Below, piece after piece: positions 17,581-21,999 of a DNA stretch of 64,000 bases; the stretch's first letter is position 1; every line of letters starts with the position of its first letter. The stretch is from assembly GCF_002243345.2 (NCBI RefSeq), contig NZ_CP022655.2:2234501-2298500 (forward strand), given 5' to 3'. The translations under genes were made by a program, and so were the position numbers. Source of the stretch: Paenibacillus sp. RUD330. GTDB taxonomy: Bacteria; Bacillota; Bacilli; Paenibacillales; Paenibacillaceae. The notes below the pieces were generated by a model that worked only from the letters and a program-made list of their open reading frames with translations, was not told the DNA's origin and made no database searches.

Positions 17581-18123
17581 TCATCTGTCCCGGGTCGTCG
17601 ATATGGGCTCGGAATGGGCGGACGCTGCGGAATCCCCGCCCGGTGAGCTTCCGCCTTCTCCGTCGTTTTCGCTTTTCGCCGTCTGGATGGCTTCCGACAG
17701 GGCCGGGTCGGGAACGGTCGATGAGCCGAGGCTGTAGGCATACTGCCTGAAATGCTTGAGCCTGGATTCCATGAGCGCATCCATCGCATTGCCCGCAACG
17801 ATGACCGAGGCTCCGCTGGAGGCGATGATGTTGATCGTGCCGACGCTGATGGAAGGACTGTGGTTGACGGTGCGGGTGACGACATCCGCCGCATCGGGGC
17901 TCTCTTCCTCTACGATGTTGAACGGCTTCTGAAAGAGGGAATATCCGGCATAGTCCACTTCTCCGCCGGCGCGGTTGTCGAGCTGCCGCTGGACGGCAAG
18001 CCCGGTCGAGCGGGCATTGATCGAAGCCGTGTCGCCGAAATGGACGACGGTGGCCAGCCCGACGCTGATCAGCTGAAAGGAGCCGATGTAAGAGGTTCGG
18101 ACCGATGTGTCGGATACGATCAT
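17581..18123 (-). CDS. gerPE: Spore germination protein GerPE
   Basis: A 180-residue protein; Bacillus GerPE is about 130. Recognisable segments are TSYIGSFQLISVGLATVVHFGDT at the start, RSTGLAVQRQ, and a second SVGTINIIASSGASVIVAGN unit of the same beta type. The tail after about residue 145 is Ser/Glu/Gly-rich and extra. GerP proteins sit in the inner coat and let germinants reach their receptors. The start overlaps gerPD as ATGA. It is the last gene of the operon: no gerPF follows. Confidence 0.85.
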   Translation of the reverse strand: MIVSDTSVRTSYIGSFQLISVGLATVVHFGDTASINARSTGLAVQRQLDNRAGGEVDYAGYSLFQKPFNIVEEESPDAADVVTRTVNHSPSISVGTINIIASSGASVIVAGNAMDALMESRLKHFRQYAYSLGSSTVPDPALSEAIQTAKSENDGEGGSSPGGDSAASAHSEPISTTRDR

Positions 18124-18482
18124 GTGTTCACCGTGACGGCCCCGGTCGGATTGAGGAAGTTGTTGCCGTTGCCGAACGGAATCGGCCCGCCGGGAGTGAC
18201 CTCCGGCTGCACGGGACCGCCCGTTCCTGGTACCGGCACGACCGTCTGTCCGCCGCCGCTCTGGATGGCCCCGGCTTCGGTCTGACCGGCTTCAGGAGCG
18301 GGCAGGGGAGCGAACGGACCGATGATGACCGATTCCGGAGGCGTATCGAAGATGGAATATAACGTGATCGTATCGGTGTCGCCGATCTGAAGCAGCGAAG
18401 CGGAAGCGACGCCCACGAGCTCCAGGCTTCCCACGCACAGCAAATGATTGGTTATGTTCACGTTCATCGCCACTGCAATCAT
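18120..18482 (-). CDS. gerPD: Spore germination protein GerPD with extended Pro/Gly-rich tail
   Basis: The first 60 residues match GerPD: MNVNITNHLLCVG, ASASLLQIGDTDTITLYSIFDTP, VIIGPFAPL. Typical GerPD is about 58-60 residues; here 120 codons are open, and the second half is a Pro/Gly/Val tail (VPVPGTGGPVQPEVTPGGP, then FGNGNN). The ATG at 18482 overlaps the gerPC stop as ATGA. An alternative ATG at 18467 would give MNVNIT as the N-terminus, closer to relatives. The added Pro/Gly tail echoes the enlarged GerPC encoded just upstream. Confidence 0.8.
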   Translation of the reverse strand: MIAVAMNVNITNHLLCVGSLELVGVASASLLQIGDTDTITLYSIFDTPPESVIIGPFAPLPAPEAGQTEAGAIQSGGGQTVVPVPGTGGPVQPEVTPGGPIPFGNGNNFLNPTGAVTVNT

Positions 18483-20857
18483 CCTTTCGGGTGTCTGGCC
18501 AAATTGTCCACATAAGCTTTCAGAGCGAGCTCGGCGTCGCGAATCGTCCGTTCCGAAGCCTTGCGCAGCAGCTGGCGCTCCTCGAGCCTGCTGCCGGGCG
18601 GCAGCGATGCCTGCTTGCTTTCTTCATCCGCCATGTAATGCCGGATCCGATCCGGAATCTGCCGGCGGACATCCTCGATGACCATCTTCTGATGATAGGG
18701 ATCCAGTTGAACCTTGAGTCCTTTGGCAGCTCGGCTCATGACATCCTGGGCGAGCGTGTTCAAATAGGCGTCGACGGCGGCTTTCACGTCGCTGTAGCCG
18801 GCGTGCCGGGTATTGGCGGGAGGCACATTGACCGGGGACGGCGAGCCTTCGCCCGGCGGGATGATGGCCGGCAAGGGAGGGATGGCGCCGGCTGCGGACG
18901 GCGCGGCAGAAAAGCCGGGCACGAGAGACGAGGCGGGCGTTCCGAATCCGCCGGAGAAGTTCGTGAGCGCCGGAGCCATGCCCGCCCCGGGTCCGGGCTG
19001 AAGGCCTCCGGGCTGCGAGATGCCGGGGAATGCGGGCGTCTGCGCCGGAGCGGCGAAATTGCCGACGAGGCCGGGCGCCAGCCCCGTTCCCGGGGCATTG
19101 CCGAACGAGGGCGCGGCTGCCCCTGCCGGAGGCCCGGAAAAGCCCGGCGGAGCGAGGGTGCCGCCAGGAGGCGGCTCGCCCGGCAGCTCGATGCTGCTCC
19201 CGGCCAGGGAAGTGGACGGGAATACGGGGCCATGGCCCGGTATGGGGGGCTGCCCCGGAATGACGGTCGTGCCCTGCGACGTCGAGGAATCGTTGCTGTT
19301 GGACGCGGGAATGAGGCTTCCCTGCTGGCCCGGAGGGACGGAAAAGCCCGGCGGAGCCTGCGGCAGCCCTGGAGCGGACGGCGGCGCTGGCGCGTTCGGG
19401 CCTTTGTTGGCGGATGCCGGGATAGGCAGCGGATAGATCGGCGCGCCCCCTTTGACGACCTTCTGGGGAACCGACACCTGCCCGAATTCCTGCATCTGCG
19501 CTTCGGACGGAGCGGTCATGCCGATGTTCAGCGTGCCGTCCAGCTGCTCGACCTTCAGCTGGTCGAAGTTGTACTCCAGCTTCTCGATCGTATAGGTGGG
19601 CTGGTTCTCGGCCTGCTGCAGCCGGTTCTCCACGTCCTGGAGATACAGCAGCAGCTGTGCGATCTGCCTTTCCTGGAGCTGCCAGCGCAGCATCATGCCG
19701 GCCAGGCATGCCTGAAGGCAGGCGGGATTCTGCAAATCGCCGGAGCAGGCCGAGGCAAGGGCTGCCGCCGCTGCATCAGCAGGCCACTCGGCGGCATTGC
19801 CGTCTTGCGCCTGCTGCGAGTCGGACACGATGGGATAAGGTGGACTTGAAAACGGCCACCCCTGGTATTGCTCCCACTGGCTGACCCAGTTGGGGTCGAC
19901 GGACTGAATGAGATTCGTAATGGAGGCCTCGTTGAAGCCGGGCGGAATTCCTTGCCAGGCTGCGACCGATTCCGGCGATTGGCCGGAATTGCCGGCAGGC
20001 GCACCGGACGCAAACGGCAATCCGGCGCCTCCCTGGACTGCCGGAATGCCGCCTGCCGCCGGAATCGGCAGTCCCCCGGGAAGCGGCGCGCCGGGCAAGA
20101 GGTGCACGGCCGGTTGGCCGGCTCCCGTGTCTGGAAACGGCATTCCCGAGAGGCTGGGCGGAGCCGGAATCGGCTGCCCAGGAGCCGCCCCGGCTTGCAG
20201 GGAGGCAGGCGGAAACGCGCCGGGAGGGTAGCCTAGAGGCGACCCTCCCTGGGGAAACGCGCCGGGGGGATAGCCTTGAGGCGATCCTCCTTGAGGAAGC
20301 GTGCCTGGAGGGTAGCTTTGTGGCATCCCTCCTTGAGGAAACGCGCCGGGAGGATAGCCTAGAGGCGATCCTCCTTGAGGATACCCGCTCGGAGGAGAGC
20401 TGCCCGGAGTGAATCCGCCTTGCGGATACGCTCCTTGAGGCCAGCCTCCCGGCGGCCCCCCCGCGGAGGGATGGACTCCAGGTATGGGGGAGCCGGAGGC
20501 TGCCGCGCTCCATGGATACGATCCACCCTTCATCGCATTGAGCGCAGGCACAGAGCCTAGGGATGGAATTTGGCCGCCAAGGCCCGGAAGCAAGCCGCCC
20601 ATGCCTGGTATCGTTCCGCCCATGCCGGGCATCGTCCCTCCCATGCCCTGGCCGCTGAGCCCGCCGAGGCCCGGAAGCACGCCGGGCAGCTTCAGGCCGG
20701 GCCAGCTTCCGCCCGCGCCCGGCCATCCGAAGCCTTTGCCGAGCACGGAAGGCAGCATCCCCATGCCTCCGTAGGAGGAGCCGAATGGAAACGGGCGATT
20801 CTCCGGAAGCTGCGGCTGGCTGTCCGGCGCAGCGGAGGAACGGTCCTGGCTTTCCAT
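18479..20857 (-). CDS. gerPC: Spore germination protein GerPC with giant Pro/Gly-rich insertions
   Basis: A 792-residue protein, nearly four times the usual 205. The GerPC core is split: residues about 392-465 give the coiled-coil QLQERQIAQLLLYLQDVENR and the conserved EKLEYNFDQLKVEQLDGTLN; residues about 685-792 give the helical C-terminal part (VRRQIPDRIRHYM). Residues 20-300 are Gly/Pro/Met/Ser-rich, with GMGG(T)PGMGG units (71-96) and four 14-residue repeats of SPLGYPPGAFPQGG type (164-219). Residues 470-680 are a second Pro/Gly-rich spacer. Cys371, Cys380 and Cys384 precede the core. AAGGAGG stands eight bases before the ATG. Gene order PA-PB-PC-PD confirms identity. The frame is open throughout, so the insertions are real coding sequence. 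Confidence 0.85.
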   Translation of the reverse strand: MESQDRSSAAPDSQPQLPENRPFPFGSSYGGMGMLPSVLGKGFGWPGAGGSWPGLKLPGVLPGLGGLSGQGMGGTMPGMGGTIPGMGGLLPGLGGQIPSLGSVPALNAMKGGSYPWSAAASGSPIPGVHPSAGGPPGGWPQGAYPQGGFTPGSSPPSGYPQGGSPLGYPPGAFPQGGMPQSYPPGTLPQGGSPQGYPPGAFPQGGSPLGYPPGAFPPASLQAGAAPGQPIPAPPSLSGMPFPDTGAGQPAVHLLPGAPLPGGLPIPAAGGIPAVQGGAGLPFASGAPAGNSGQSPESVAAWQGIPPGFNEASITNLIQSVDPNWVSQWEQYQGWPFSSPPYPIVSDSQQAQDGNAAEWPADAAAAALASACSGDLQNPACLQACLAGMMLRWQLQERQIAQLLLYLQDVENRLQQAENQPTYTIEKLEYNFDQLKVEQLDGTLNIGMTAPSEAQMQEFGQVSVPQKVVKGGAPIYPLPIPASANKGPNAPAPPSAPGLPQAPPGFSVPPGQQGSLIPASNSNDSSTSQGTTVIPGQPPIPGHGPVFPSTSLAGSSIELPGEPPPGGTLAPPGFSGPPAGAAAPSFGNAPGTGLAPGLVGNFAAPAQTPAFPGISQPGGLQPGPGAGMAPALTNFSGGFGTPASSLVPGFSAAPSAAGAIPPLPAIIPPGEGSPSPVNVPPANTRHAGYSDVKAAVDAYLNTLAQDVMSRAAKGLKVQLDPYHQKMVIEDVRRQIPDRIRHYMADEESKQASLPPGSRLEERQLLRKASERTIRDAELALKAYVDNLARHPKG
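20201..20368 (-). repeat. Four tandem 42-bp repeats inside gerPC
   Basis: Four consecutive in-frame 14-codon units: SPLGYPPGAFPQGG, MPQSYPPGTLPQGG, SPQGYPPGAFPQGG, SPLGYPPGAFPPAS. They are similar at DNA level too, so they arose by recent tandem duplication and could change copy number without breaking the frame. Confidence 0.85.
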
Positions 20858-20878
20858 GGCATGAGGCCTCCTTTCGGT

Positions 20879-21091
20879 CTAGCTCGGATTAGGCAGCGGC
20901 ACGAAGCTCAAGGCATCCGCCCCTTCGTTCGCCGTCAGCTGCTCGGCCGGATGGTCGAATCCGCCGGAGTTGTAGAGCTGGGATACCGGCCGGATGGAGC
21001 CGGCGCTGCCGATCTGCAGCACGGAGCTGTTGGAGACGCTGTCCACGCGCAGCTGATGGATGGTGATGGACTGGTGGACGGTCAGGTTCAT
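20879..21091 (-). CDS. gerPB: Spore germination protein GerPB
   Basis: A 70-residue protein close to GerPB in length and sequence: MNLTVHQSITIHQLRVDSVSN, then SSVLQIGSAGSIRPVSQLYNSGGF and a short polar tail. Its ATG overlaps the gerPA stop as ATGA. GerPB contributes to coat permeability to germinants. The stop is 21 bases before the gerPC start. Confidence 0.9.
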   Translation of the reverse strand: MNLTVHQSITIHQLRVDSVSNSSVLQIGSAGSIRPVSQLYNSGGFDHPAEQLTANEGADALSFVPLPNPS

Positions 21092-21327
21092 ATAATATTC
21101 GCTCCGGATGCAACTTCGTTATTGGAGTTATCCTGAAGATCGGGGTCCAGGGTATTGGTGGCGCTGAGTCCGTTGTTGGCGTTCGTCAAGCCCCCGGTCA
21201 GGAACGATCCTGAACCTGCATAGGTTTTGGAGGAGCTGGAGGGCGATATCTGGACGGTGTCCCCGAACTGGACAACGCCGCTGGAACCGACGCTGACGAT
21301 ATTGACAAAGCCGACAGCAGCAGGCAT
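21088..21327 (-). CDS. gerPA: Spore germination protein GerPA/GerPF family
   Basis: A 79-residue protein with the family pattern MPAAVGFVNIVSVGSSG, VVQFGDTVQISPSSSSKTYAG and NNGLSATNTLDPDLQDN. GerPA and GerPF are paralogues and the sequence could be assigned to either; position at the head of the operon favours GerPA. AGGTGA is upstream of the ATG. Bacillus operons hold both paralogues, but only this one is present here. Confidence 0.88.
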   Translation of the reverse strand: MPAAVGFVNIVSVGSSGVVQFGDTVQISPSSSSKTYAGSGSFLTGGLTNANNGLSATNTLDPDLQDNSNNEVASGANII

Positions 21328-21507: not shown

Positions 21508-21999
21508 GTGGGCAGCAAATGGGATCAGATGCAGGAATGGCTCGCTCGCCAGCAGCTGCCCAAAGGCTTCGAAGCGATGAAGGAGCCGGAATGGGTGGCG
21601 CGCATCGTCAAGCAGATGATGGAAGGCGCGCTCAGCGGCAGTCCGACAGCCGGCTTGTCGGGCATGCAGGATACCGCGGACAAAGCCAAGAAGGGCGAGA
21701 ATTTCAAAGCGGGTATATCTTCGCTGGGGGCGGAGTGGACGGAGAACAAGGAGTACCTGCTGCTCAAGCTGCCTCTGCAGGGTGAAGCCGACGCCGAGAC
21801 GCTCCGGGTCAGGGTGAAGGAGGAGCGGCTGCGCATCGAAGGCTTGCCGGGACGACGTCCGCAAAGCCTGCCGCTGCCGGCTCCCGTCCAGCCCCGTTCC
21901 ACGCGTGCGATGATCAAGGGCGGCGTGCTCCGGGTTCGTCTGAAGAAGAAGTCTCCGTCGAAATACATCGATGTGTTCATCGAAGAAGGTCCGGACTAG
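21508..21999 (+). CDS. Hsp20/alpha-crystallin-family small heat-shock protein
   Basis: A 163-residue protein. Residues about 75-160 are an alpha-crystallin domain: AEWTENKEYLLLKLPLQGEADAETL, RVRVKEERLRIEG and the end strand GGVLRVRLKKK. The N-terminal half is helical and polar (MGSKWDQMQEWLARQQLPKG). The loop is shortened and the usual I-x-I tail is replaced by YIDVFIEEG. Start GTG at 21508 behind GGAGGGAGG. It is divergent from gerP. Bacillus CotP is a small heat-shock-like coat protein, so a spore role is plausible but unproven. Confidence 0.8.
   Translation: MGSKWDQMQEWLARQQLPKGFEAMKEPEWVARIVKQMMEGALSGSPTAGLSGMQDTADKAKKGENFKAGISSLGAEWTENKEYLLLKLPLQGEADAETLRVRVKEERLRIEGLPGRRPQSLPLPAPVQPRSTRAMIKGGVLRVRLKKKSPSKYIDVFIEEGPD

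Follow-up and report, generated by a model that had tools for sequence, protein, structure and literature searches.

An enlarged, clade-specific GerPC with conserved islands and Pro/Gly-rich segments in the gerP locus of Paenibacillus sp. RUD330

Introduction

The assembly of GerP proteins reportedly depends on GerPA and SafA, as the title of a 2018 study by Ghosh has it. In excerpts of the published work on Bacillus, the GerP proteins sit in the inner spore coat and are proposed to provide routes of passage for germinants, and the way in which germinants cross the coat with their help is described in outline only (PMC11841064). According to further excerpts, deletion of gerPC slows germination, an effect that is relieved by removal of the coat (PMC2817736), and the loss of gerP disturbs the outer coat layers (PMC12285231). 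The C. difficile germination protein GerG, as described in part of PMC5241399, carries 14-residue low-complexity repeats of variable number, is predicted to be disordered and forms gels in vitro; its repeats are Asn/Met-rich and dispensable for germination, and its authors argue against an effect on germinant access.

Here we analyse a gerP locus within a window of 64,000 nucleotides from Paenibacillus sp. RUD330 (contig NZ_CP022655.2), in which gerPC codes for 792 residues. The usual length of GerPC is about 200 residues, length itself standing outside the family definition. Literature searches over the titles and abstract openings of open-licence PMC papers brought up no description of such an enlarged GerPC.

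The gerP locus and the long gerPC gene

The long gerPC lies between gerPB and a gerPD-like gene within the order gerPA-B-C-D-E (Table 1), and neighbouring genes overlap by 4 bases at gerPA/PB, gerPC/PD and gerPD/PE.

Table 1. Features of the gerP locus and parts of the enlarged gerPC gene, in positions of the window
Feature	Position	Strand	Basis
gerPA	21088..21327	(-)	Pfam gerPA, E 1.4e-26
gerPB	20879..21091	(-)	Pfam GerPB, E 6e-27
Shine-Dalgarno site AAAGGAGG	20867..20874	(-)	9 bases upstream of the gerPC ATG, read from the sequence
gerPC, 792 codons, ~79.4 kDa	18479..20857	(-)	ORF; Pfam GerPC, E 1.9e-31; computed mass
N-terminal island, ~residues 17-55	20693..20809	(-)	alignment of seven enlarged proteins
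Pro/Gly-rich arm, residues 61-298, predicted disordered	19964..20677	(-)	composition; pLDDT mostly <50
Tandem repeat in the arm, 42-bp (14-residue) unit, 4.5 copies	20211..20400	(-)	TRF
Second island, residues 299-397	19667..19963	(-)	W..Y.GWPF (W328-F336) and C371-x8-C380-x3-C384
GerPC coiled coil and core, residues 398-465	19463..19666	(-)	best Pfam stretch 402-465; predicted helix 378-418
Conserved GGAxxYPLPIP stretch after the core, residues 466-482	19412..19462	(-)	alignments
Second Pro/Gly-rich segment (linker), residues 483-684, predicted disordered	18806..19411	(-)	composition; pLDDT mostly <50
C-terminal helical domain, residues 685-792, and stop	18479..18805	(-)	pLDDT mostly >94; second Pfam stretch
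gerPD-like, 120 aa, extended C-terminus	18120..18482	(-)	position and likeness to small GerP proteins
gerPE	17581..18123	(-)	Pfam GerPE, E 5.5e-21

The gene begins with ATG and contains no internal stop. Its product matched the Pfam family GerPC (PF10737) in two stretches with 109.8 bits (cut-off 22.4), and in the genome profile search profile positions 3-65 and 70-173 were both recovered from one open frame. On this sequence evidence, the protein is a genuine GerPC, an enlarged variant and not a new family. The original prediction of a GerPC enlarged to 792 residues in an unbroken frame, with its core and C-terminal domain conserved, is borne out.

The open frame alone is weak evidence, because the same GC-rich DNA carries a 452-aa antisense ORF; the signs that exceed chance are the recurrence of the enlarged protein in seven of eight genomes of the genus, the ribosome-binding sites, the in-frame composition and the dN/dS ratios. 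Shine-Dalgarno sites are found directly ahead of the long N-terminus in all seven enlarged genes of the genus (see below). In five of the six enlarged genes other than that of the window, the GTG start called by the script overlaps this site; because it does so, the true start in those five probably lies four codons later. The share of Pro and Gly read in frame is 47% in residues 61-298 (maximum 29% in 200 nucleotide shuffles) and 40% in the linker (maximum 35% in 200 shuffles). One antisense frame of the arm reaches 50%, but it is interrupted by nine stops. The dN/dS ratios, calculated by the Nei-Gojobori method for three species pairs, were 0.28, 0.29 and 0.50 for the arm, 0.44, 0.28 and 0.24 for the linker and 0.00, 0.11 and 0.24 for the core, and should be read as rough because the alignment of the repeats is uncertain. 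All computable values were below 1; the value of the second island for one pair was not computable, its synonymous sites being saturated.

The gerPD-like product gave Pfam matches under the cut-off and a profile match to GerPB of 98.8%. Its C-terminal extension contains Pro and Gly, and the protein has 114-120 residues in all eight loci of the genus, including that with the shortest gerPC (G002). Elsewhere it has 63-90 residues in 10 of 12 loci outside the genus; for the two that remain (ORFs of 112 and 129) the start may have been called too far upstream. GerPA, PB, PD and PE match one another at 96.9-99.0% in hhalign, a figure to be taken as an upper view because the profiles were built iteratively and some members may be common to them. 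A kinship of the GerPC core with these small proteins, suspected by eye, was rejected on an hhalign probability of 0.3% against GerPA, PB, PD and PE.

A gene of the gerPA/gerPF type (PF10676) is present as a single copy in the genome of the window (G000) and in each of the eight genomes of the genus, and G000 seems to lack a separate gerPF. In a sample of 36 genomes of the family, exactly one copy was found in 26, none in 7 and more than one in 3. The absence of a second gene of this type as the cause of GerPC enlargement is not supported, because the short G002 likewise has one copy. A divergent ORF of 163 aa adjoining gerPA (21508-21999 (+)) gave matches to the CS/Hsp20 domain under the cut-off (E 0.03-0.04) and perhaps encodes a small-heat-shock-like coat protein.

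Domain organisation of the enlarged GerPC

The enlarged protein keeps the ordered parts of an ordinary GerPC, the coiled coil with the core and the helical C-terminal domain, and adds to them a long, mostly predicted-disordered N-terminal extension with two conserved islands and a hinge stretched to 153-237 residues. The AlphaFold model as a whole is of low confidence (mean pLDDT 54.2, pTM 0.35, 38 sequences). In the C-terminal domain, helices are predicted over residues 688-788 with pLDDT mostly above 94, and over residues 1-308 and 464-684 pLDDT lies mostly below 50, which agrees with the flexibility first proposed for the two added segments.

Two segments rich in Pro and Gly are indeed present: residues 61-298 contain 26% G and 22% P, and residues 483-684 contain 23% P and 17% G. 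For residues 61-298 the description as Met-rich did not hold (Met 3%). Nor is the whole of the approximately 390 residues ahead of the core of low complexity, as had been suggested; this applies to the arm, whereas about 100 residues (299-397) and part of residues 1-60 form the conserved islands.

The islands are the most constrained of the added parts and are common to all seven enlarged proteins. In the N-terminal island, a W-P-G block, residues R21, G30, G40, K41, W45, P46, G47, G49, G50, P53 and G54 are invariant. In the second island the invariant positions are W328, Y331, G333, W334, P335, F336, P339 and P340, followed by C371, G373, L375, P378, C380, L381, Q382 and C384, and the island continues straight into the coiled coil. 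Each of the seven proteins has exactly three cysteines, arranged as C-x8-C-x3-C, which in the AlphaFold model are found at the base of helix 378-418, itself a prediction. Since the added sequence holds these islands, the enlargement would comprise a gain of probable docking or cross-linking elements besides a spacer.

The search of the model against the PDB with Foldseek returned 82 matches at E <=10, none of them at <=0.001 (best 0.72). Neither phmmer against PDB sequences nor NCBIfam gave a match at E 1, and the C-terminal domain showed a weak match to DUF2267 under the cut-off (E 0.075).

Distribution and origin of the enlargement

Seven of the eight genomes of the genus encode an enlarged GerPC of 668-802 residues, the eighth (G002) one of 333 residues; the stop-to-stop frames measure 675-806 codons in the seven and 338 in G002. 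The seven include genomes corresponding to P. humicus NBRC 102415, P. pasadenensis DSM 19293 and MER37, and P. herberti R33, and the rpoB of the genome of the window is nearly identical to that of P. humicus (G004). In the rpoB tree, built from 25 of 26 genomes (G395 was left out), the seven form one group with support of 100/100, next to which G002 is placed as sister at modest support (85/86). This grouping makes one gain, on the stem leading to the seven sampled Paenibacillus species, the most economical history of the enlargement. None of the seven sampled descendants has returned to the short length.

A GerPC match was found in 174 of 394 genomes of the family, where the longest frame was 339 codons among 35 genomes re-run and frame lengths were otherwise taken from among the matches listed. 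The order gave matches in 201 of 392 genomes (frame lengths among the matches listed and from 44 genomes re-run), and the class in 104 of 299, with all matches covered. Among the matches listed, seven frames outside the genus exceeded 341 codons, and all of them were opened. Five proved to be an upstream frame before a shorter gene, namely G413 (443), G405 (427), G398 (364), G759 (760) and G661 (363), and one, G532 (502), was a weak match under the cut-off to a sensor-kinase-like protein. The only real GerPC, G446 (349-codon frame, 348 residues), carries Gly/Ala repeats in its linker. Enlargement by these insertions, whose spread among relatives the original prediction proposed to examine, was seen, among the matches listed, in seven of the eight genomes of the genus.

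The lengths of the parts were compared in 143 distinct ORFs with both domains, leaving out L001-L015 and L172-L208 (duplicates or rpoB). The seven enlarged proteins have 326-438 residues ahead of the core and 153-237 between the core and the C-terminal domain. For the other 136 ORFs, some of which are cut short or have uncertain starts, the median total length is 231, with medians of 31.5 residues before the core and 35 in the gap; the maxima are 225 before the core (L142, an upstream-frame artefact) and 176 in the gap (G446).

The profile of the second island matched in 7 of 388 genomes of the family, once each and always in gerPC, with at most the best 13 candidates per genome scored, so that weak relatives could be missed. 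The profile of the N-terminal island matched in seven of the eight genomes of the genus, once each and in gerPC. Across these two sets of genomes, no donor or fusion source for the N-terminal part was found. In G002, about 117 residues of GerPC lie ahead of its core, the three cysteines occupy other positions, and the profile searches found neither island in the protein; it may, or may not, represent an intermediate stage of the enlargement.

Turnover of the arm and the linker

Repeat scans of the arm in the window and in G004-G007 revealed units of different length, 42 bp in the window, 39 bp in G006 and 36 bp in G005, and no tandem repeats in G004 and G007. A further tandem repeat, of 52 bp in 4.4 copies, lies outside gerPC in P. 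pasadenensis DSM 19293 (L050, 2999-3225). In all seven proteins the arm, whose script-defined length is 154-278 residues, contains 40-49% Pro and Gly, 1-8% charged and 6-10% aromatic residues; the linker, with 29-41% Pro and Gly, is less uniform. By prediction, the arm has the marks of an intrinsically disordered spacer, namely predicted disorder and a composition that is held while the repeats differ. This pattern looks like that of a disordered region selected for its bulk properties, but recurrent, weakly constrained slippage would leave a similar one, and the data distinguish the two only incompletely.

Several other lineages (e.g., G446) have gaps of 80-176 residues between the core and the C-terminal domain that consist of low-complexity sequence of other kinds. 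In L224 (G446), from another family of the order, an independent long linker with 14-residue Gly/Ala/Ser/Asn repeats is situated at the same hinge of GerPC.

Discussion

In the enlarged GerPC, a known coat protein has genuinely been elaborated within one clade. It shares with ordinary GerPC (PF10737) a core and a C-terminal domain above the Pfam cut-off, and the second half of the gerPA-B-C-D-E order is kept; it differs in length (668-802 residues in the seven, median 231 in the 136 other ORFs) and in the two islands and the Pro/Gly arm, which ordinary GerPC lacks in the genomes searched. Other GerPC proteins listed for Paenibacillaceae have low-complexity sequence at the same hinge, with Gly/Ala/Ser repeats in G446 and L224 and Gly/Asn/Ser in G316 and L058, but their gap does not exceed 176 residues and an N-terminal arm of the enlarged kind is absent. 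Collagen, elastin and the tails of annexins A7 and A11 are also rich in Pro and Gly and low in charge. The GYPPG-type repeats of the enlarged GerPC resemble the annexin tails by eye only. The likeness to collagen and elastin that had been proposed was not upheld: the protein has no long Gly-X-Y run (the longest, of 3 triplets, was reached by 486 of 500 shuffles of residues 61-298), and the VPGxG motif is absent from its whole length. With GerG the comparison is by description only.

The reading we favour, with a probability of roughly 0.4, is that the enlarged GerPC may be a coiled-coil scaffold of the inner coat whose flexible arms space and tether the GerP layer; it draws on the presence of the enlarged protein in seven of eight genomes, the islands and cysteines common to all seven, the predicted helices and disorder, the dN/dS of 0.24-0.50 in arm and linker, an arm composition held while the repeats differ, and the published inner-coat place and deletion phenotype (PMC11841064, PMC2817736). 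The coiled coil would oligomerise GerPC in the inner coat, and each oligomer would display a number of Pro/Gly arms, flexible and almost without charge. Other coat proteins could dock on the N-terminal island and on the W..Y.GWPF block, and the C-x8-C-x3-C cysteines at the base of the coiled coil could lock or cross-link the oligomer. The arms would then tether the GerP layer, determine its spacing and mesh, and leave it open to small germinants, and selection would act on their length and composition more than on their exact sequence. A role of the added segments in permeability, as originally suggested, would be an extrapolation from studies of gerP in Bacillus (PMC11841064, PMC2817736) and seems reasonable by that analogy. 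Against the scaffold and spacer view stand the spread of arm lengths, which a strict spacer might not allow, the low overall confidence of the model and, by analogy, the dispensable repeats of GerG in the described part of that work (PMC5241399).

The same dispensability favours the main rival, near-neutral filler around functional islands: recurrent slippage in GC-rich DNA would have lengthened two permissive places, the length of the arm being about neutral, and only the islands, the core and the C-terminal domain would matter. The repeats that differ among species, their varying in-frame units and the low-complexity gaps of other lineages fit this explanation. It agrees less well with an arm dN/dS below 1 in all three pairs, with a composition held in all seven proteins and with the lack of any return to the short length among their sampled descendants, and we regard it as possible, though on balance unlikely. 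A role in building up the coat and not in permeability has a somewhat lower standing and is doubtful. The islands would here recruit new putative coat partners (e.g., SafA, GerPA or outer-coat proteins) and the arm would provide reach. The constraint on the islands speaks for it, as do the dependence on GerPA and SafA said in Ghosh's 2018 title to govern GerP assembly and the outer coat layers disturbed on gerP loss (PMC12285231, in excerpt); the linker, however, is also enlarged, though without such strong islands.

Distinctly unlikely, in our view, is a disordered Pro/Gly gel in the inner coat that is anchored by coiled-coil oligomers and cysteine cross-links and gates by size and amphipathy, letting small nutrients pass and holding back larger or amphipathic molecules. 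If true, the spore coat would have its own equivalent of the meshes of disordered protein by which other biological barriers are gated. The flexible arm between two separately conserved parts would also suit a precursor whose N-terminal part is cleaved during coat maturation and acts as a separate coat protein, but the direct passage of the second island into the coiled coil makes this improbable. Finally, an artefact through misassembly, a wrong start codon or the fusion of frames is hardly credible. Repeats can be mis-assembled, a danger raised in the original prediction, and long upstream frames are common before gerPC-like genes in the sampled genomes (G405, G413, G398, G759, G661 and G739). 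Misassembly is nevertheless very unlikely because seven genomes agree in the architecture; the Shine-Dalgarno sites at the long start, the conserved islands and the low dN/dS also oppose an artefact, and short GerPC relatives were found only outside the enlarged clade.

Whichever part the arms play, several lineages have acquired long low-complexity sequence at the hinge between the core and the C-terminal domain of GerPC. The approximately threefold enlargement of GerPC offers a naturally occurring way to test how entry into the spore is controlled by coat proteins. The existence of a short sister (G002) makes the system well suited to experiment, and the enlarged clade beside this much shorter relative provides a natural comparison in which the arms, islands and cysteines can be set against germinant access.
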